Shown: positions 10,643 through 18,492 of the stretch, piece after piece
How positions within the stretch are numbered: position 1 is the first letter of the stretch
Layout of the letters: each line of letters begins with the position of its first letter
NCBI GenBank assembly: GCA_902622515.1
Contig: CACNQE010000016.1
Location: forward strand, 1-35,945
DNA: 35,945 nt
DNA from: an uncultured SAR116 cluster alpha proteobacterium
Lineage (GTDB): Bacteria > Pseudomonadota > Alphaproteobacteria > Puniceispirillales > Puniceispirillaceae
Direction: 5' to 3'
Notes under the pieces: model-generated
What the model was told of the DNA's origin: nothing
The model's database searches: none
Seen by the model: the letters and a program-made list of their open reading frames with translations, nothing else
Made by a program: the position numbers and the translations under genes

Positions 10643-11452
10643 ATGGAAGGTATAACACCGCAAGATTGTATTCAACGAGCAAAAGGCCAAATTTCCTTCA
10701 AAGTGAGTGGGTCTAGAATTGAAAAGCTCTATCAATCTGGCTGTAGCAAATTACTTTTACCAAAAACATATGGAGAAATGAAAGAGGCAGTAATGCTTAA
10801 TACAGCTGGGGGAGTTACAGGGGGAGATATGATAGATGTAAAGATTAACGCATCTGATTGTAATCTTGCTGTAACCAGTCAGACTGCTGAAAGATTCTAC
10901 CAAAGTAATATGCACCCAGCATTGATATCAATTGATTTAAAAATTGATAACAAAACCAATTTTCATTGGTTGCCTCAAGAAACGATTATCTTTGAAGGTG
11001 CAGCAGTAGATCGAAAAATAACACTAAATATGTCATCTGATAGTCATTGCTTGTTAGCAGAGACGTTTGTTCTTGGCCGAGAAGCAATGGGCGAAAATAT
11101 TCAACAATGTCATTTTACTGATCAATGGCGTTTGTATATTGATGGTAAGCTTTTTCACTCAGAGTCAATCAGAATGATTGGGGATGTAGAAAAGCTTCTA
11201 CATTCAAATGCTAGTGCAAATGGGGCTAGAATAATATCGACAATTATTTGCGCTGGACCAAATACTGAAAAGCTCAAACCGATTGTCGAGAAAAACTTAG
11301 CATCAATGAATTCAAATTGTGCCTGTAGTTTTTTTAATAAAAAGATGATTATAAGGCTTTTAAGCTTGAATGGTGCATCTGGAAGAGCTGAACTAAATCA
11401 AATGCTAATAGCGCTTCGAAAGCAGCCGATGCCTCGGGTGTGGCAGCAATAA
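10643..11452 (+). CDS. ureD: Urease accessory protein UreD
   Basis: 269 residues, typical for UreD/UreH. It shows the family segments LLLPKTYG, EAVMLNTAGGVTGGD, TSQTAERFYQS and WLPQETIIFEGA. UreD binds the urease apoprotein and, with UreF and UreG, forms the complex that inserts nickel. It is the first gene of the ureDABCEFG operon, 16 bases before ureA. The ATG at 10643 has only a weak ribosome-binding site; no better start is available, since an upstream ATG runs into a stop after seven codons. Confidence 0.93.
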   Translation: MEGITPQDCIQRAKGQISFKVSGSRIEKLYQSGCSKLLLPKTYGEMKEAVMLNTAGGVTGGDMIDVKINASDCNLAVTSQTAERFYQSNMHPALISIDLKIDNKTNFHWLPQETIIFEGAAVDRKITLNMSSDSHCLLAETFVLGREAMGENIQQCHFTDQWRLYIDGKLFHSESIRMIGDVEKLLHSNASANGARIISTIICAGPNTEKLKPIVEKNLASMNSNCACSFFNKKMIIRLLSLNGASGRAELNQMLIALRKQPMPRVWQQ

Positions 11453-11468
11453 GTAAAGGGAGGACAAT

Positions 11469-11771
11469 GTGAAACTCAATCCAAGAGAAAAAGACAAGTT
11501 GCTTGTCTCTGTAGCAGCAATGGTGGCTCGCAATCGAAAACAAAGAGGTGTTAAGCTGAATTATCCAGAGGCTGTAGCACTGATTACAGACTTTGTGGTG
11601 GAGGGGGCACGTGATGGCCGAAGCGTAGCAGACCTTATGGCAGCTGGTGCAGAAGTTGTAACGCGTGACGAGTGTATGGATGGAATTGCAGAGATGATAC
11701 ATGATGTTCAAGTCGAGGCTACATTTCCAGACGGAACTAAGCTGGTAACTGTCCATCATCCAATTCGATAG
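11469..11771 (+). CDS. ureA: Urease gamma subunit
   Basis: 100 residues, the standard gamma-subunit length. It begins [13 protein letters not shown] and ends with [10 protein letters not shown], both characteristic. The start is GTG at 11469, preceded by AGGGAGG at about six bases. An ATG overlapping it by one base is out of frame and meets a stop at once. It forms the (alpha-beta-gamma)3 urease core with UreB and UreC in the cytoplasm. The ureB gene follows after 12 bases. Confidence 0.97.
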
Positions 11772-11783
11772 GGGGAGATATTT

Positions 11784-12089
11784 ATGATTCCAGGTGAAGT
11801 AATAACATCAGACGAAGATATAATACTAAATTCAGATAGAAAATCTGTTAGGATTGTGGTTGCAAACTCTGGCGATAGGCCCATCCAAGTAGGCAGCCAT
11901 TATCATTTTTTTGAAACTAATTCAGCCCTCGTTTTTGATAGGCAAAAATCCAGAGGAATGCGACTTGATATCGCAGCTGGCACAGCGGTGAGATTTGAGC
12001 CAGGACAAGAGCGAGAAGTGCAGCTTATTCCGTTTTCTGGAAATAAGGCTATTTTTGGATTTAATCAAAAAGTTATGGGAGCATTATAA
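11784..12089 (+). CDS. ureB: Urease beta subunit
   Basis: 101 residues starting [13 protein letters not shown], with the family segments [11 protein letters not shown] and [19 protein letters not shown] ribosome-binding site (GGGGGAG) precedes the ATG. The last base of its stop codon is the first base of the ureC start codon, so translation is probably coupled. It is a structural subunit holding the catalytic alpha subunit; it has no active-site residues of its own. Confidence 0.97.
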
Positions 12090-13798
12090 TGCCAGTCTCT
12101 TTTTCACGAAAAATTTATGCAGATATGTATGGACCTACAACGGGTGATAAAGTTCGTCTGGCTGATACCGAATTATTTATCGAAGTTGAAAAAGACCTTA
12201 CAAAATATGGTGATGAAGTAAAATTTGGTGGTGGTAAGGTTATACGGGATGGGATGGGACAATCACAGGTGTCGAGAGAAGATGGTGCTGTAGATACAGT
12301 TATAACCAATGCATTAATTGTAGATATAACCGGCATTTATAAAGCGGATATTGGCATAAAAGATGGATTAATTCATGCAATTGGAAAAGCAGGGAACCCT
12401 GATACACAGGAATCCGTAGATATTATTATTGGCCCATCGACAGAAGCGATTGCGGGTGAGGGTCATATTGTAACCGCTGGTGGTTTTGACAGCCATATTC
12501 ATTTTATTTGTCCTCAACAGATTGATGATGCTTTGCATTCTGGGTTGACTACTATGCTTGGGGGAGGCACTGGTCCGGCTCATGGAACTCTTGCAACAAC
12601 TTGCACCCCTGGCGCGTGGCATATTTCAAGAATGCTTCAGTCAGCGGATAGTTTTGCTATGAATTTAGCATTTGCAGGAAAAGGCAATGCTTCGGTGCCA
12701 GTTCCACTTGAAGAGCAAATAAACGCAGGTGCATGTGCACTTAAACTTCATGAGGATTGGGGGACAACACCGGCTGCGATTGATAATTGTCTTAGCGTAG
12801 CAGATGCGATGGATGTTCAGGTAATGATCCATACAGATACTCTCAATGAGAGTGGGTTTGTTGAGAATACAGTTTCAGCGATGAAAGGCCGTACTATCCA
12901 CGCCTTTCATACAGAGGGTGCTGGCGGTGGACATGCACCTGATATTATTAAGATTTGTGGTGAGAAACACGTGATTCCATCTTCAACAAATCCTACTCGA
13001 CCTTATACAGTGAATACACTTGAAGAACATCTTGATATGTTAATGGTTTGTCATCATCTTGATAGGTCTATTCCCGAAGATGTTGCATTTGCAGAGAGTC
13101 GCATTCGAAAAGAAACAATTGCTGCAGAAGATATTTTGCATGATATGGGCGCATTTTCTATCATTGCTTCTGATAGTCAGGCCATGGGAAGGGTTGGTGA
13201 AGTTATAACACGAACTTGGCAGACAGCTCACAAAATGAAAGTACAGCGTGGACGTCTCTCAAATGAGGTTGGAGAAAATGATAACTTAAGAGTAAAAAGA
13301 TATATCGCTAAATACACGATTAATCCTGCTATATGTCATGGCATTTCAGATCATATAGGTAGTATAGTTGTTGGTAAGCGTGCAGATGTAGTTATTTGGG
13401 ATCCAGCCTTTTTTGGTGTTAAACCTGAAATGGTTCTTCTTGGTGGAAGCATTGCTGTAGCGCAAATGGGAGACCCAAATGCGTCTATTCCGACTCCACA
13501 ACCTGTTTACACGCGGCCAATGTTTGCATCATTTGGCCGTTCTGTTGAACAATCGGCTGTTTGTTTTGTAAGTAAAACAGCTCAGGAAAAAAATATTGGC
13601 CTTGAGTTGGGACTAGCAAAGCAAACTAAAGCTGTAGAAAACACAAGGTCCATCTCAAAGGAAGATATGGTGCTAAATAATCACCTCCCAGAAATAGAAG
13701 TGCATCCAGAAACTTATGAAGTTCGAGCTGATGGGGAACTTCTGACGTGTGAGCCCGCACAAGAATTGCCGATGGCGCAACGCTACTTTTTATTTTAG
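12089..13798 (+). CDS. ureC: Urease alpha (catalytic) subunit
   Basis: 569 residues, full length. All nickel and catalytic residues are present, offset by two from Klebsiella urease: His136 and His138 (DSHIHF), the carbamylated Lys219 and His221 (LKLHEDWG), His248 (HTDTLNES), His274 (HAFHTEG), the flap Cys321 and His322 (MVCHHL) and Asp362 (ASDSQAMGR). The enzyme hydrolyses urea to ammonia and carbamate in the cytoplasm. Because the active site is intact and the accessory genes ureD, E, F and G are all alongside, a functional enzyme is expected. Nickel uptake genes are not in the window. Confidence 0.98.
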
Positions 13799-13814
13799 TT
13801 CAAAGGGGAATTTT

Positions 13815-14303
13815 ATGATGCATATCTCACAAAAAATCCTACATAATATTGAAAAAGCAAGTGCAACTGATACAATTACTCTAGATTATGAAGGTAGGTT
13901 CTTAAGACGTAAAAGATTAATATCAGATAAGGGAGTAGCTTTCTTAGTAGAACTCCCAGAAGTGCGATCAGTATCTGCAACTGATGGATTTGTTCTAGAC
14001 GATGGGCGCATTATTGCAATACATCCTAAGCCTGAACCTATTATGAAAATAACGTCTACTAATCTTGCCCGTGTTGCTTGGCATATTGGGAATAGGCATA
14101 CACCATGCCAAATTCAAACCGATCATTTGCTTATACAGCAAGACCATGTACTTGAAAATATGTTGCTGTTATTGGGTGCAAACATCGAAAAATTAGAAGC
14201 AGCATTCACACCTGAAGGGGGTGCCTATGGTCATGGGAGAACACATAGTCATGACCATAATTCATCAGAAACCTCACTCACACAGTCTAATCATCATCAC
14301 TGA
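13815..14303 (+). CDS. ureE: Urease accessory protein UreE (nickel metallochaperone)
   Basis: About 162 residues from the ATG at 13815, which follows a purine-rich GGGGAA; an in-frame start further upstream lies inside ureC and is unlikely. The C-terminal tail is histidine-rich (HGRTHSHDH ... HHH), as in many UreE proteins, and would bind Ni2+ for delivery to the UreDFG complex. The body shows the family's VAWHIGNRHTPCQ and RQDHVLE-like (QQDHVLENML) segments, the former carrying conserved residues of the metal-binding domain. Confidence 0.95.
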   Translation: MMHISQKILHNIEKASATDTITLDYEGRFLRRKRLISDKGVAFLVELPEVRSVSATDGFVLDDGRIIAIHPKPEPIMKITSTNLARVAWHIGNRHTPCQIQTDHLLIQQDHVLENMLLLLGANIEKLEAAFTPEGGAYGHGRTHSHDHNSSETSLTQSNHHH

Positions 14304-14320
14304 TAGATAGGCCTTGAAAC

Positions 14321-14953
14321 ATGCTATATCGTGATATGATGGTTCTTCAGGCTTGGTTTTCACCAGCATTTCCCATTGGCGCGTTTAGCTATTCTCATGG
14401 ACTGGAAACTGCTATTCAGGAAGGTTTGGTGTCAGAAAAAGCGAGTTTAACAAGGTGGATTAGTTATTTACTGACTGATGGGTCAGGCTGGAATGATAGT
14501 TTGTTTTTAAAAGCTGCCTATGAAAAAAGTGAAGGCGCCAATGATCTATGTATTTCTTTTTGTTCAAGCGAAGAGAGATATAAAGAAACAATTGAGTTAG
14601 GCGCTGCTTTTACACGAAGTGTTAATTCGAGCTATAAGATGAAGTTAGAACATGGCCTTGCTTATCCAGTTGCGGTTGGGTTGGCTGCAAGAGAATATAA
14701 TCTAGACCTGCAACTAACGATACAAAGCTATCTTCAGGCATTTGCAGCAAACTTGATTTCTGTTGGGGTGCGAACAATTCCCATAGGACAGCAGGCAGGT
14801 CAGGATTGTTTGGCAAGTCTTTTAACAGTAATTGAGCATATGAAAAATGACTTAATTAAAGCAGATCTTAAGTGGTTAGGGAGTGCAACATTTATGTCAG
14901 AGGTGATGTCAATGAAGCACGAAAAAGCAAATCCAAGGATATATCGAACATGA
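14321..14953 (+). CDS. ureF: Urease accessory protein UreF
   Basis: 210 residues, slightly short for UreF but with the hallmark N-terminal segment [19 protein letters not shown] and the C-terminal [17 protein letters not shown] segment. UreF acts with UreD as the scaffold that recruits UreG and is thought to gate its GTPase activity. Its stop codon overlaps the ureG start in an ATGA arrangement, indicating coupled translation. Confidence 0.95.
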
Positions 14954-15573
14954 TAAGAGATAAATTGAAATATGGTCCATTGCGTGTTGGCATAGGAGGC
15001 CCAGTTGGTGCTGGTAAGACAAGCATGACGGAAGCATTGTGCAAAAGACTTGCATCAGATATTTCTATGGGCGTCATTACCAATGACATTTATACTAAAG
15101 AAGATGCTGATTATCTTATTCGTTCACAGGTTTTATCATCTGATAGAATTTGTGGTGTTGAAACAGGTGGTTGTCCTCATACGGCTATTCGAGAGGATGC
15201 GTCTGTTAATCTAGCCGCGATGGATGAGTTGAAGGAACGTTTTCCAGATTTAGAAATGATATTATTAGAGTCTGGAGGGGATAATCTGGCAGCGACATTT
15301 AGCCCAGAGCTTGTTGACCTTACCATTTATGTAATTGATGTTTGTATGGGTGCGGATATTCCGCGAAAAAAGGGTCCCGCACTAATGAAATCAGACATGT
15401 TAGTTGTGAATAAAATCGAGCTTGCAGAGTATGTAAATGTTGATCTTGATCAAATGCGCAGAGATACAAGGCAAAATAGAGGCAAACTCCCGTTTATTTT
15501 TGGTTCAATGAGAAAAGGAATAGGGATATCTGAGCTTGTTGATTTCTTGAAAATTGAGGGAGGATTGAGCTAA
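14950..15573 (+). CDS. ureG: Urease accessory GTPase UreG
   Basis: 207 residues from ATG at 14950 ([17 protein letters not shown]). It has the P-loop [10 protein letters not shown], the nickel-binding Cys-Pro-His motif ([13 protein letters not shown]), [17 protein letters not shown], and the guanine-specificity segment VVNKIELA. UreG dimerises on nickel and GTP and powers metallocentre assembly. A longer reading frame begins inside ureF, but the overlapping ATGA start matches the normal UreG N terminus. It is the last gene of the operon. Only a weak palindrome (TAAGAATTCTTA, 15581-15592) followed by T-rich sequence could serve as terminator. Confidence 0.97.
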
Positions 15574-15608: not shown

Positions 15609-16022
15609 TTATTTGGTGTTAACCTGAAAAGCTGTTTTTTTTGCTTTGTTCCAATATTTAAAAAAACGTGTGAAATTAAAATTATCATCGATATGTACAA
15701 ATGCATTAGGATATACGAATTCGAGCTCAAACTCCACGGAAATCTCTCTTATTAATCGTCTCAACTCAAGGTCAGAGGTGTAAGGCGTTATAACCTTTTT
15801 TGGGGCGATTTCTTTCACGATATCTAATGTTTTTCCATGAACAATTTCAACGGGCATTGTAGTTAGAGTTTCATATATGAATACGAGCCTTTTTAAAGAG
15901 TAATTTCTTTTTTTGAAATAGGCGTCATCCCAAATAAATAATGCTCTTGAGTTAGGTGCCATTCTAGAAAATATCGGCTGGTTATCTCCGAGTCCTTTTT
16001 CATGTATATACAGTAATTGCAT
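15609..16022 (-). CDS. Photolyase-like alpha/beta (antenna-domain) protein, stand-alone
   Basis: 137 residues from the ATG at 16022, which lies one base past the stop of the FAD-domain gene. A longer frame starts inside that gene and is less likely. The sequence resembles the N-terminal alpha/beta domain of DNA photolyases: MQLLYIHEKGLGDNQPIF at the start, ALFIWDDAYF, then SLKRLVFIYETLTTMPVEIVHGK, where photolyases read the strand-helix unit before the inter-domain linker. No FAD-binding domain follows; that part is encoded separately just upstream. I infer that the two proteins together form a split photolyase. Similarity is judged by eye and is moderate. Confidence 0.6.
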   Translation of the reverse strand: MQLLYIHEKGLGDNQPIFSRMAPNSRALFIWDDAYFKKRNYSLKRLVFIYETLTTMPVEIVHGKTLDIVKEIAPKKVITPYTSDLELRRLIREISVEFELEFVYPNAFVHIDDNFNFTRFFKYWNKAKKTAFQVNTK

Positions 16023-16023
16023 T

Positions 16024-16824
16024 CTAGTATTTATCCATATTGGGGAATAACCGCTCAATGAGCTCCTCATAGTTTGCATCAAGTGGTTGATTGTTTTCTG
16101 AAGAGGTATCAACCAAGCCCGAAAAATATTTTTCTACGTTCTCAAGATTAAAAATATATGGCTTATTGCTGAAAGTGCTGGCAACCCATTGCCATGAAAA
16201 ATTATTGCTTGCCTCATCACCATCTAGAAGATGTTGCAAGAACCAAAAAGCACCTGTTTGCCATTTAATTCTCCTAAAATGGACAATATAGCTAGCTAAA
16301 TACATTCGTGCATGGTTGTGAAGGTAACCAGTATTTAGCAGTTCCTCAATGAAAAAGTTAATACAGGCAACGTTTGTCTGCGCGTTTAATATATCCTCTG
16401 GAAGGTTTTCTGAATAATCAGAGAAAGAAAAACCAGTTTTATATTCCTCCACATCACTCCAAATCCAATCTGGATGTTGAGCAGCTATTCTTTGCCAAAA
16501 ATCTCGCCATCCTAATTCCTGAATAAATTTTTCGTTTTGTTTAAAATTAGGGTTTGATTTGAGTGCAAAATTTCTCACTTCGTTTAAACTGATTATACCG
16601 TGATGAATATATGGAGATAATCTTGTTATTTTTCCATTCCCAAAATTACGTGTTTTTCCGTAACTCACTGGGTCAATTTCGCTCAAGGTTTTATATGCCT
16701 GCTCTGAACCACCAATTATACATGACTCGCTGCCTTCAGCCCATTTAGACAGACTTTTTACATATTTAATGAGAGCATCTCTACTTTTGAAATTTTTAGA
16801 AAGCTGTTCCATAAATCTTTCCAT
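16024..16824 (-). CDS. Short photolyase-like protein: FAD-binding domain only
   Basis: 266 residues matching only the C-terminal FAD-binding domain of photolyases. Visible signatures are GNGKITRLSPYIHHGIIS, FIQELGWRDFWQRIAAQ, TGYLHNHARMYLASYIVHF and ASNNFSWQWVASTFSNKPYIFN. The Asn207-Asn208 pair and Trp211/Trp213 correspond to the flavin-contacting Asn and the proximal electron-transfer Trp of E. coli photolyase. The antenna-type alpha/beta domain is absent from this chain. Bacterial short photolyase-like proteins without that domain have been described as active in DNA repair, so activity is plausible. A second ATG at 16812, after GGAAAG, is an alternative start. Confidence 0.8.
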   Translation of the reverse strand: MERFMEQLSKNFKSRDALIKYVKSLSKWAEGSESCIIGGSEQAYKTLSEIDPVSYGKTRNFGNGKITRLSPYIHHGIISLNEVRNFALKSNPNFKQNEKFIQELGWRDFWQRIAAQHPDWIWSDVEEYKTGFSFSDYSENLPEDILNAQTNVACINFFIEELLNTGYLHNHARMYLASYIVHFRRIKWQTGAFWFLQHLLDGDEASNNFSWQWVASTFSNKPYIFNLENVEKYFSGLVDTSSENNQPLDANYEELIERLFPNMDKY

Positions 16825-16956: not shown

Positions 16957-18492
16957 ATGGGATATAGAAAAATGATAAATGTCGTTTGGTTTAAGCGAGA
17001 TTTGCGTATTCATGATAATGAGGCGCTAACAAGCGCAGCTAAGGATGGCCCTCTATTACCATTATATATTTACGAGCCGTCACTCTGGGAACAAGAGGAG
17101 ATGAGTTTTACCAAGCAGGCCTTTTTAAGAGTAAGCCTCGAAGAATTAAACTTAGCTTTAAAAGAACTTGGCCAAGGTCTGATAATTAAAAAGGGTAACG
17201 CAGTCGATATTCTTGATAATTTGAATAAACGGCATGGTATTCGAGGTTTATATTCTCACCAGGAAACTTGGAATGGTTGGACTTATAAGCGTGATTTAGA
17301 AGTGCGAAGATGGCTTAAATCCAAGGGCATAAGATGGCATGAAGCAAGGCAGAATGGCGTCATAAGAAGTCTTGGAGACAGAAATGGGTGGGCAAAAAAC
17401 TGGCAATCACAAATGACTCTTCCATTATTTAAAGCACCACAAACAATAGACAAGGTGGTCGAAAAAACTGATAAAATAGAATTGTTTAATACTAAATCAA
17501 AACACAATTTCGAAACACAAATGCTAGCTAAAGGTGGACGAAAAGAAGGTCTTAGTTTTTTGTATAGTTTTTTAAATTTAAGGGGAGAAAATTACACTAA
17601 ACAGATGTCCTCACCTCTCACAGCCTTTGATAGTTGCTCTCTATTATCCTCCCATCTCGCTTACGGAACGGTATCAATCCGTGAGACGTTTCAGGCAGCA
17701 CAAAGTCGAAAAAGAGAAATTCAAAGTTTTGAAAAGTTGGACCGTGGCAATTGGCCATCCGCTTTAAATTCATTCCTTGGCCGTCTAAGATGGCATTGTC
17801 ACTTTATTCAAAAATTGGAGGATGAGCCGCGCATTGAATTTGAAAATATGCATCCTGCTTATGATAATTTGAGAAGTGAAAAGTTCAATGAACAATATTT
17901 TCTTGCTTGGAAAACTGGAAATACTGGCTATCCCATGATTGATGCATGTATGCGCTCCTTGATACATACTGGATGGTTAAACTTCAGAATGCGCGCTATG
18001 TTAGTGAGTTTTTCTAGTTATCATCTTTGGTTACATTGGCGACTTCCTGCCACCTATTTAGCGTCATTGTTCGTAGATTTTGAGCCTGGTATTCATTTTA
18101 GCCAAATGCAGATGCAATCTGGTACAACAGGAATAAACAGTATTCGCATTTATAATCCCGTTAAACAAAGCAGAGATCATGATCCAGACGGTATCTTTAT
18201 AAAAAAGTGGGTACCTGAACTTTCTCATTTAGCGCCAAGTGAAATTCATGAGCCGTGGCTTGGAGGTAGAATAAAGAGCTATCCTGAGCCTATCATACAA
18301 GAAAAAGAAGCTCGAAAAAAAGCATCAGAATTGTTGTATGGGTTGCGAAAAAATAATACACAGCATCAAAAAATCTCGAAGGAAATTGTTAATAAACATG
18401 GAAGCAGAAAATCTGGACTTAGAAGCAGAACTGTAAATAAAATGAAAAATCACCATTCAATGAAACCCACTCAATTAACATTTCCAGTATAA
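16957..18492 (+). CDS. Cryptochrome/deoxyribodipyrimidine photolyase family protein
   Basis: 511 residues with both photolyase domains. The N-terminal alpha/beta domain begins VVWFKRDLRIHDNEAL and the FAD domain carries TGYPMIDACMRSLIHTGWLNFRMRAM and IRIYNPVKQSRDHDPDGIFIKKWVPEL. The segment that reads ANNGGWQWAASTG in E. coli PhrB reads GIHFSQMQMQSGTTG here, so Met384 and Met386 stand where the two Trp would be, and His seems to replace the flavin-facing Asn. That points to a divergent subgroup; repair enzyme or photoreceptor cannot be decided. The C-terminal tail is basic and low-complexity. ATG at 16972 (MINVVWFKRDL) is an equally good start. Confidence 0.88.
   Translation: MGYRKMINVVWFKRDLRIHDNEALTSAAKDGPLLPLYIYEPSLWEQEEMSFTKQAFLRVSLEELNLALKELGQGLIIKKGNAVDILDNLNKRHGIRGLYSHQETWNGWTYKRDLEVRRWLKSKGIRWHEARQNGVIRSLGDRNGWAKNWQSQMTLPLFKAPQTIDKVVEKTDKIELFNTKSKHNFETQMLAKGGRKEGLSFLYSFLNLRGENYTKQMSSPLTAFDSCSLLSSHLAYGTVSIRETFQAAQSRKREIQSFEKLDRGNWPSALNSFLGRLRWHCHFIQKLEDEPRIEFENMHPAYDNLRSEKFNEQYFLAWKTGNTGYPMIDACMRSLIHTGWLNFRMRAMLVSFSSYHLWLHWRLPATYLASLFVDFEPGIHFSQMQMQSGTTGINSIRIYNPVKQSRDHDPDGIFIKKWVPELSHLAPSEIHEPWLGGRIKSYPEPIIQEKEARKKASELLYGLRKNNTQHQKISKEIVNKHGSRKSGLRSRTVNKMKNHHSMKPTQLTFPV

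Follow-up and report, generated by a model that had tools for sequence, protein, structure and literature searches.

The window, meaning the whole stretch of 35,945 nucleotides analysed here from an uncultured SAR116 cluster alphaproteobacterium, contains two adjoining minus-strand genes that would encode the two domains of a photolyase as separate chains, with a divergent full-length photolyase/cryptochrome beside them on the plus strand. These features are arranged as follows:

15609 to 16022, minus strand: 137-residue predicted alpha/beta-domain subunit (P0002), homologue of the canonical N-terminal photolyase domain (DNA_photolyase, PF00875), assigned through profiles, relatives and predicted fold.
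16023 to 16023, minus strand: single intergenic base between the P0001 stop codon and the P0002 ATG, from the coordinates.
16024 to 16824, minus strand: 266-residue predicted FAD-binding catalytic subunit (P0001) of the short photolyase-like (SPL) type, with Pfam FAD_binding_7.
16957 to 18492, plus strand: divergent full-length photolyase/cryptochrome of 511 residues, outside the pair, with DNA_photolyase and FAD_binding_7 in the usual order.

The gene of P0002 lies downstream of that of P0001 on the same strand, with a gap of exactly position 16023, and the coordinates, strand, lengths (266 and 137 residues) and one-base spacing given in a preliminary description of this DNA were all correct on recheck. 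The two genes probably form one operon, for which translational coupling would be expected. Regarding other members of the superfamily, three FAD_binding_7 genes are present in the genome (G000), namely the short one, the 511-residue neighbour and a 478-residue open frame on contig C1. The end of what we take to be a urease gene cluster (10643-15573, plus strand, with ureD-, ureC-, ureE-, ureF- and ureG-like genes) adjoins the pair in convergent orientation.

P0001 matches FAD_binding_7 with 81.2 bits (cut-off 27), and neither a further Pfam family up to E 1 nor a DNA_photolyase domain was found in the chain. It had been described as an FAD-binding domain only, with an intact NN-x-x-WQW core, and this reading held, as the ASNNFSWQW motif is present and FAD_binding_7 is the sole Pfam match. 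The best PDB sequence matches are the class I photolyases 1tez and 1owl. By alignment with the Anacystis photolyase (1owl), residues E283, W286, N349, M353 and D380 correspond to E103, W106, N170, M174 and D201 of P0001, and D382, N386, W367 and W390 to D203, N207, W188 and W211, all nine (E103 to W211) being invariant in a 23-sequence alignment. Among them, E283, W286, M353, W367 and W390 serve the binding of CPDs, contact with FAD and electron transfer. The position of W314, which we take to be the distal tryptophan of the canonical triad, is occupied by F134. In addition, N349, D380, D382 and N386 belong to a published list of FAD contacts, in which W346 appears in print as T346 (PMC9426592), and four positions of that list differ, as T240, W280, W346 and A385 are I66, F100, Y167 and S206 in P0001. 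The chain thus combines FAD_binding_7 with FAD- and lesion-contacting residues, these four published FAD positions being different. Its only cysteines are C35 and C154, so that it lacks the Fe-S cysteine set. Of the four Fe-S cysteines, the one at residue 154 (the GVACID position) often persists in relatives after the disappearance of the other three, as would be seen if an ancestor had possessed the Fe-S cluster and lost it.

P0002 alone matched no family in Pfam, gave one match far under its cut-off in NCBIfam and found no credible match among PDB sequences; consequently, its alpha/beta identity is not decidable from the single sequence and had to be sought through its relatives. When a profile of 64 members was compared by hhalign with eight canonical N-domains, the probability was 96.9 (E 1.7e-10), with only residues 1-78 of P0002 covered, and two unrelated proteins of the window used as controls gave 0.9 and 0.4. 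PF00875 was matched by 22 of the 64 family members at E <= 0.01 (best 2.3e-7), and Usp, a family of similar fold, by seven. Against PDB, 17 of the 21 hits of the profile up to E 10 were cryptochrome/photolyase chains (best E 0.018) and the other four were not.

The AlphaFold2 model of P0002 (pLDDT 91.3, pTM 0.79) has five strands with helices. Searched alone, Foldseek places CoaD nucleotidyltransferases, which share the fold class, on top and mixed with photolyases. All 50 entries listed by VIA-align, which re-ranks the Foldseek matches, are photolyase/cryptochrome chains with Z from 9.1 to 11.6, such as 8ijy (Z 10.8, 2.3 angstrom over 106 residues), and a CoaD-type identity was set aside because that list holds photolyases and cryptochromes only. 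Taken together, the profile score, the PF00875 matches of the relatives and the modelled fold confirm P0002 as a predicted member of the photolyase N-terminal alpha/beta-domain family, as the preliminary description had proposed from its resemblance to the domain missing from P0001. The profile and structure comparisons thus matched both chains to photolyase domains, and an unrelated fold of the small protein did not emerge; the alpha/beta domain typical of the superfamily is found here on a separate chain, whose own sequence escapes Pfam.

Regarding the conservation of the pair, the FAD gene (E < 1e-100) was found in 28 of 101 related genomes and strong P0002 matches in exactly these 28, a gene arrangement that is far from chance; this count leaves out three P0002 matches with E of 0.02-0.09 and, in G001, an additional partial one (E 0.002). 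In 27 of the 28 loci the partner is immediately preceded, on its own strand, by the FAD gene (cut by a contig start in two cases); in the remaining genome, G006, the partner is divided between two contigs, the first 47 residues adjoining the FAD gene. Scanning GTDB with the FAD-domain profile gave at least 582 passing candidates, and the best 80 were examined, with titles from Proteobacteria, Cyanobacteria, Acidobacteria, Chloroflexi and others. Among these best 80 of at least 582 loci, the partner follows the FAD gene on its strand at a distance of up to 265 bases in 66 and is fused in one; the other 13, all cyanobacteria, show no partner in a flank of up to 3 kb, and in 13 of 13 of their genomes it is encoded elsewhere. 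As P0002 belongs to the alpha/beta family and its gene is conserved beside the short FAD gene, in 27 of the 28 loci of relatives and in 66 of the best 80 GTDB loci, the preliminary description was borne out on the two points on which it depended, fold and linkage. The closest P0001 match among those listed in the scan is from an uncultured SAR116 cluster alphaproteobacterium (97 % over P0001). The locus L048, titled as a Klebsiella pneumoniae MAG and probably mislabelled or mis-binned, encodes an FAD chain that shares 64 % identity with P0001, next to a partner gene.

The co-occurrence was similar in broader samples. In Alphaproteobacteria, the FAD gene and the partner were each found in 7 of 240 genomes, the same seven (7/7), and in Pseudomonadota two of 200 genomes (G000 and G144, both also in the former sample) had the FAD gene, each with its partner. 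Inverted single-chain photolyases, reportedly described as NewPHL by Emmerich in 2020, were kept apart in these counts. In Cyanobacteria, the FAD gene was present in 25 of 146 genomes and the partner in 25 of 25, leaving out two NewPHL-type genomes and G379 (E 6e-75), a Persicobacter-type single chain; counting G379 would give 26 FAD genomes against 25 partner genomes. In the Synechococcus-type family, whose seven NewPHL-type genomes were not taken as carriers, the FAD gene was found in 39 of 121 genomes and the partner in 40, the odd partner gene being at a contig edge; G738 (E 1e-76), having a fused partner domain, was kept in the count. The samples overlap, as G000 and G015 belong to both the relatives and the Alphaproteobacteria sample, and G492 to both cyanobacterial ones. 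Moreover, in four genomes of the Cyanobacteria sample (G404, G417, G442 and G444), both genes are kept although a distance of over 400 kb separates them on a single contig.

The divergence of the two chains is also matched, with a Spearman coefficient of 0.76 for 90 dereplicated of 108 pairs (best of 1000 permutations 0.14), and of 0.66 for 53 pairs lacking the Fe-S motif, 0.91 for 37 pairs with it and 0.76 for 11 unlinked pairs; shared species history partly accounts for this correlation. Both genes are under purifying selection: dS could be estimated in 6 of 15 congener pairs for P0001, giving dN/dS of 0.06-0.21, and in 8 of 15 for P0002, giving 0.05-0.25, with some of the dS values saturated. 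Among phage records, ten had P0001 matches (29-34 % identity) and no P0002 relative was found up to E 10; likewise, none of the 14 plasmid records matched at E 1e-20 contained an actinobacterial SPL.

The junction of the two genes varies. Of 94 split pairs, 85 are distinct; in 58 of these 85 the genes overlap and in 75 they are no more than 15 bases apart. The second gene, having its own start codon at the junction, occurs in all three phases (49, 28 and 8), so that translational coupling is expected rather than a fixed frameshift. Six pairs (L075, L076, L078, L087, L096 and L107) have both halves in one frame with exactly one stop between them and are possible recent fissions or pre-fusion states. 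A 358-residue frame in L020 was ruled out as a fusion, being merely a long open frame that differs in frame from the FAD gene.

Natural fusions keep the same reversed order, which supports the two-component photolyase proposed in the preliminary description. Three Deinococcus plasmids (L031, L032 and L041) carry one gene of 456-472 residues with the FAD domain first and a P0002-like domain last, and a fourth has the split form with a 4-base overlap. The P0002 profile matched a six-sequence alignment of C-terminal or partner domains, built from these four Deinococcus proteins (three fused, one split) and two fused Persicobacter proteins, with a probability of 99.5 (E 7e-23). In the Synechococcus-type family, 22 of the 39 are split and 17 fused, the fused L092 included, and parsimony on its tree counts four split/fused changes (3-5 across bootstraps), one of them being required by starred branches alone. 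The model of the fused L092 is confident (pLDDT 90.1, pTM 0.90), the matches of its FAD portion being (6-4) and class I photolyases with Z of about 16-18; one of the 50 rows of its VIA-align list, mitoribosomal 7pub_Ff (Z 14.4), is unrelated, which limits the trust in such matches for helical parts.

A third kind of reversed-order single chain, the Persicobacter type, was counted apart. Its C-terminal domain is missed by the P0002 HMM, and profile comparison gives 96.2 % (E 2e-9). Full-length photolyase/cryptochromes of the same group as the 511-residue neighbour in the window stand beside or near reversed-order genes in Persicobacter and in some Alpha- and Gammaproteobacteria, the membership being tree-supported for those from L034, L051 and L053:

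L034, 2234-3574; L035, 2351-3562; and L207 (cyanobacterium): Persicobacter-type fused protein, FAD domain followed by the C-terminal domain.
L034, 3560-5039; L035, 3443-5018; likewise L046, L051 and L053: full-length photolyase/cryptochrome by a reversed-order gene, with N-domain identity of 26-47 %.

In the Chloroflexi loci L087 and L096, a different full-length photolyase, presumably of the Fe-S (6-4) type, is near the reversed-order pair.

A quick tree was built from 134 FAD domains, 101 of these rows falling in the paired class. P0001 falls in a clade of 58 rows (97, starred), mostly proteobacterial and all separate genes, in none of which the C-x2-C...C motif was found. The clade with the Fe-S motif (42 rows; 95, starred) is mostly cyanobacterial, with Chloroflexi, Acidobacteria, Deinococcus and three alphaproteobacterial pairs, and comprises split, unlinked and fused forms; a divergent Deinococcus, QL22, has the motif and lies outside both paired clades. 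The generalisation that no proteobacterial pair carries the Fe-S motif was found to be wrong, as the alphaproteobacterial pairs L141-L143 have it and fall in that clade. The NewPHL-type rows form a clade of their own (99, starred). Across the wider tree, three changes are required to explain the fused state, and starred branches impose each of them: one falls outside the paired class and two inside it, in Deinococcus and in Synechococcus L092, where the fusions are nested among split forms. The tree of the paired class therefore indicates that the reversed order is old in the class and that the split form is the established condition around the window. The root relative to canonical photolyases is unreliable because of long branches, and the class may have come either from a canonical enzyme by permutation or from parts never joined in the canonical order; the preliminary description likewise offered an ancestral origin or derivation by circular permutation and fission.

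Considering these results, P0001 and P0002 are best explained as the halves of one obligate heterodimeric photolyase, with a catalytic and an alpha/beta subunit, a reading to which we assign a probability of about 0.82. The basis lies in domain homology, conserved linkage, co-occurrence when the genes are unlinked, same-order fusions and purifying selection, all of which were observed. The 266-residue chain would bind FAD and the DNA lesion and perform the light-driven electron-transfer repair, and the 137-residue chain, made as a separate subunit from the adjoining gene of one operon, would dock onto it and complete the fold, possibly holding an antenna chromophore. A stable heterodimer in the organism of the window is predicted indirectly, by the fusions and by the model of the fused protein.

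It is also conceivable, if unlikely, that the FAD chain works alone and that P0002 is a dedicated helper for cofactor delivery, stability or light sensing, with no photolyase-like two-domain complex. A Rhodococcus SPL is reported to bind FAD and repair CPDs by itself (Xu, 2021), in which case the alpha/beta chain would be non-essential in vitro, and the CoaD nucleotidyltransferases at the top of the Foldseek matches, together with the seven Usp matches in the family of 64, would suit a helper. Such a role is difficult to reconcile with natural fusions in the same order, with a fused L092 model reaching a pTM of 0.90, with the matches to PF00875 in 22 of the 64 members and with a VIA-align list in which 50 of 50 entries are photolyase/cryptochrome chains. 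Slightly less probable still is a cryptochrome-like photoreceptor or regulator, repair being left to the two full-length photolyases of the genome; the two other FAD_binding_7 genes and the loss of the distal tryptophan from P0001 are compatible with it, and the retained class I-type active-site residues argue against it, as does the lower UV-C survival upon loss of Phr4/Phr5 and the protection of E. coli from UV-C by phr4/phr5 (PMC9426592). The joining of both frames into a single polypeptide by programmed frameshifting or stop readthrough appears very improbable: recoding has been raised as a possibility for the Synechococcus phr4/phr5 (PMC9426592), and the six same-frame pairs with a single stop would allow it, against which stand the three phases of the second gene (49, 28 and 8 of 85), its own start codon and the unlinked genes of several cyanobacteria.

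For the heterodimeric photolyase, the lesion is probably the cyclobutane pyrimidine dimer, judging from the class I-type active-site residues and the lack of Fe-S cysteines in P0001; this is the least certain step, because the Fe-S relatives from Synechococcus are predicted in print to be (6-4) photolyases. A NewPHL-type match, assigned by score (best match E 1e-39 to 1e-50), occurs in none of the 28 paired relatives and in 39 of the 73 other relatives, and 11 of these 39 genes, which were fetched, form one clade with Ruegeria, Asticcacaulis and Peteryoungia proteins. In the Synechococcus-type family, seven small-genome members have a NewPHL-type match and no partner gene. By score, then, pair-bearing genomes are without a NewPHL-type gene both in the 101 relatives and in the 121 Synechococcus-type genomes, and the two types seem to stand in for one another in related genomes. 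Such mutual exclusion points to a common job, the pattern being confounded by descent, and on this ground the pair may do the job of NewPHL, repairing CPDs in single-stranded DNA.

That the same two halves are kept together in several bacterial phyla suggests that a supposed one-domain family works as a two-part machine. We lean, with some reserve, towards regarding the SPL class, put forward elsewhere as the one-domain forebear of every photolyase and cryptochrome, as the catalytic subunit of an obligate two-chain photolyase, in which the split would be standing across much of the class and the chains would have been joined (or split) repeatedly; its alpha/beta subunit would have been overlooked because it is encoded by a separate, fast-evolving small gene. 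If this is true, the family shows photolyase assembly from parts, ongoing in living lineages. If SPLs are half enzymes, assays of the lone FAD chain may have missed antenna function and native stability, and the argument for a one-domain ancestor of photolyases loses its footing. Moreover, with split, unlinked and fused versions occurring naturally, direct tests of how the domains of a photo-enzyme separate and join become possible. The sunlit surface sea, where UV repair matters, is the habitat of SAR116 bacteria.

Comparing the pair with known systems, a heterodimeric photolyase from the adjacent genes SynWH7803_0266/0267 was proposed in 2012 (PMC3441193), and phr4/phr5 and the fused phr6 were named in 2022 in marine Synechococcus and Cyanobium, where the reversed domain order and the same gene set in Nostoc punctiforme were noted (PMC9426592). 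In that source, Phr4 and Phr6 are described with four Fe-S cysteines throughout, and Phr4/Phr5 are predicted to be (6-4) photolyases on the basis of these cysteines and UV-C data (PMC9426592). As in the window, the FAD gene is first and the alpha/beta gene second, adjacent or fused, thus in reversed order, and the Synechococcus and Cyanobium loci fall in the two profile families of P0001 and P0002, the Phr4/Phr5 of RS9916 being compared by description. The difference is that P0001 and its 58-row clade lack the four Fe-S cysteines of Phr4 and Phr6. A two-gene and fused reversed-order photolyase is therefore already known, and the idea was not new with the preliminary description. In the literature searched, which covered few subscription papers, neither a description of the partner outside cyanobacteria, nor pairs free of Fe-S cysteines, nor a general co-occurrence of SPLs with an alpha/beta partner was found. 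What is new is the predicted variant free of Fe-S cysteines in SAR116 and in most of the proteobacterial pairs seen, together with sequence evidence that "short photolyase-like" proteins would generally have their alpha/beta domain as a separate subunit.

SPLs are described as devoid of an alpha/beta domain and as candidate ancestors (PMC9649867, PMC9498864), the S. elongatus SephrC is treated among them (PMC9178010), and NewPHLs and SPLs are placed in one group by a 2026 paper (PMC13274461). Likened by description, P0001 alone fits an SPL, being an FAD domain with no N-terminal alpha/beta domain and having class I photolyases as closest solved structures; unlike that description, every surveyed genome counted as a carrier of the FAD gene has a separate or fused partner. 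The NewPHL is an inverted single-chain photolyase with a C-terminal Z-domain (PMC9426592, PMC13274461), and it shares with the pair the inverted order, FAD domain first, and related FAD domains. However, it is one chain instead of two, and P0001 lies outside the NewPHL-type clade, the type being assigned here by architecture. Between P0002 and 22 C-terminal domains of NewPHL-type rows, no profile similarity was detectable (hhalign probability 6.7); an F-F...K motif ends both. Finally, both domains of the canonical photolyase/cryptochrome (PF00875 followed by PF03441) are homologous to those predicted for the pair, which carries them on separate chains and in reversed gene order.
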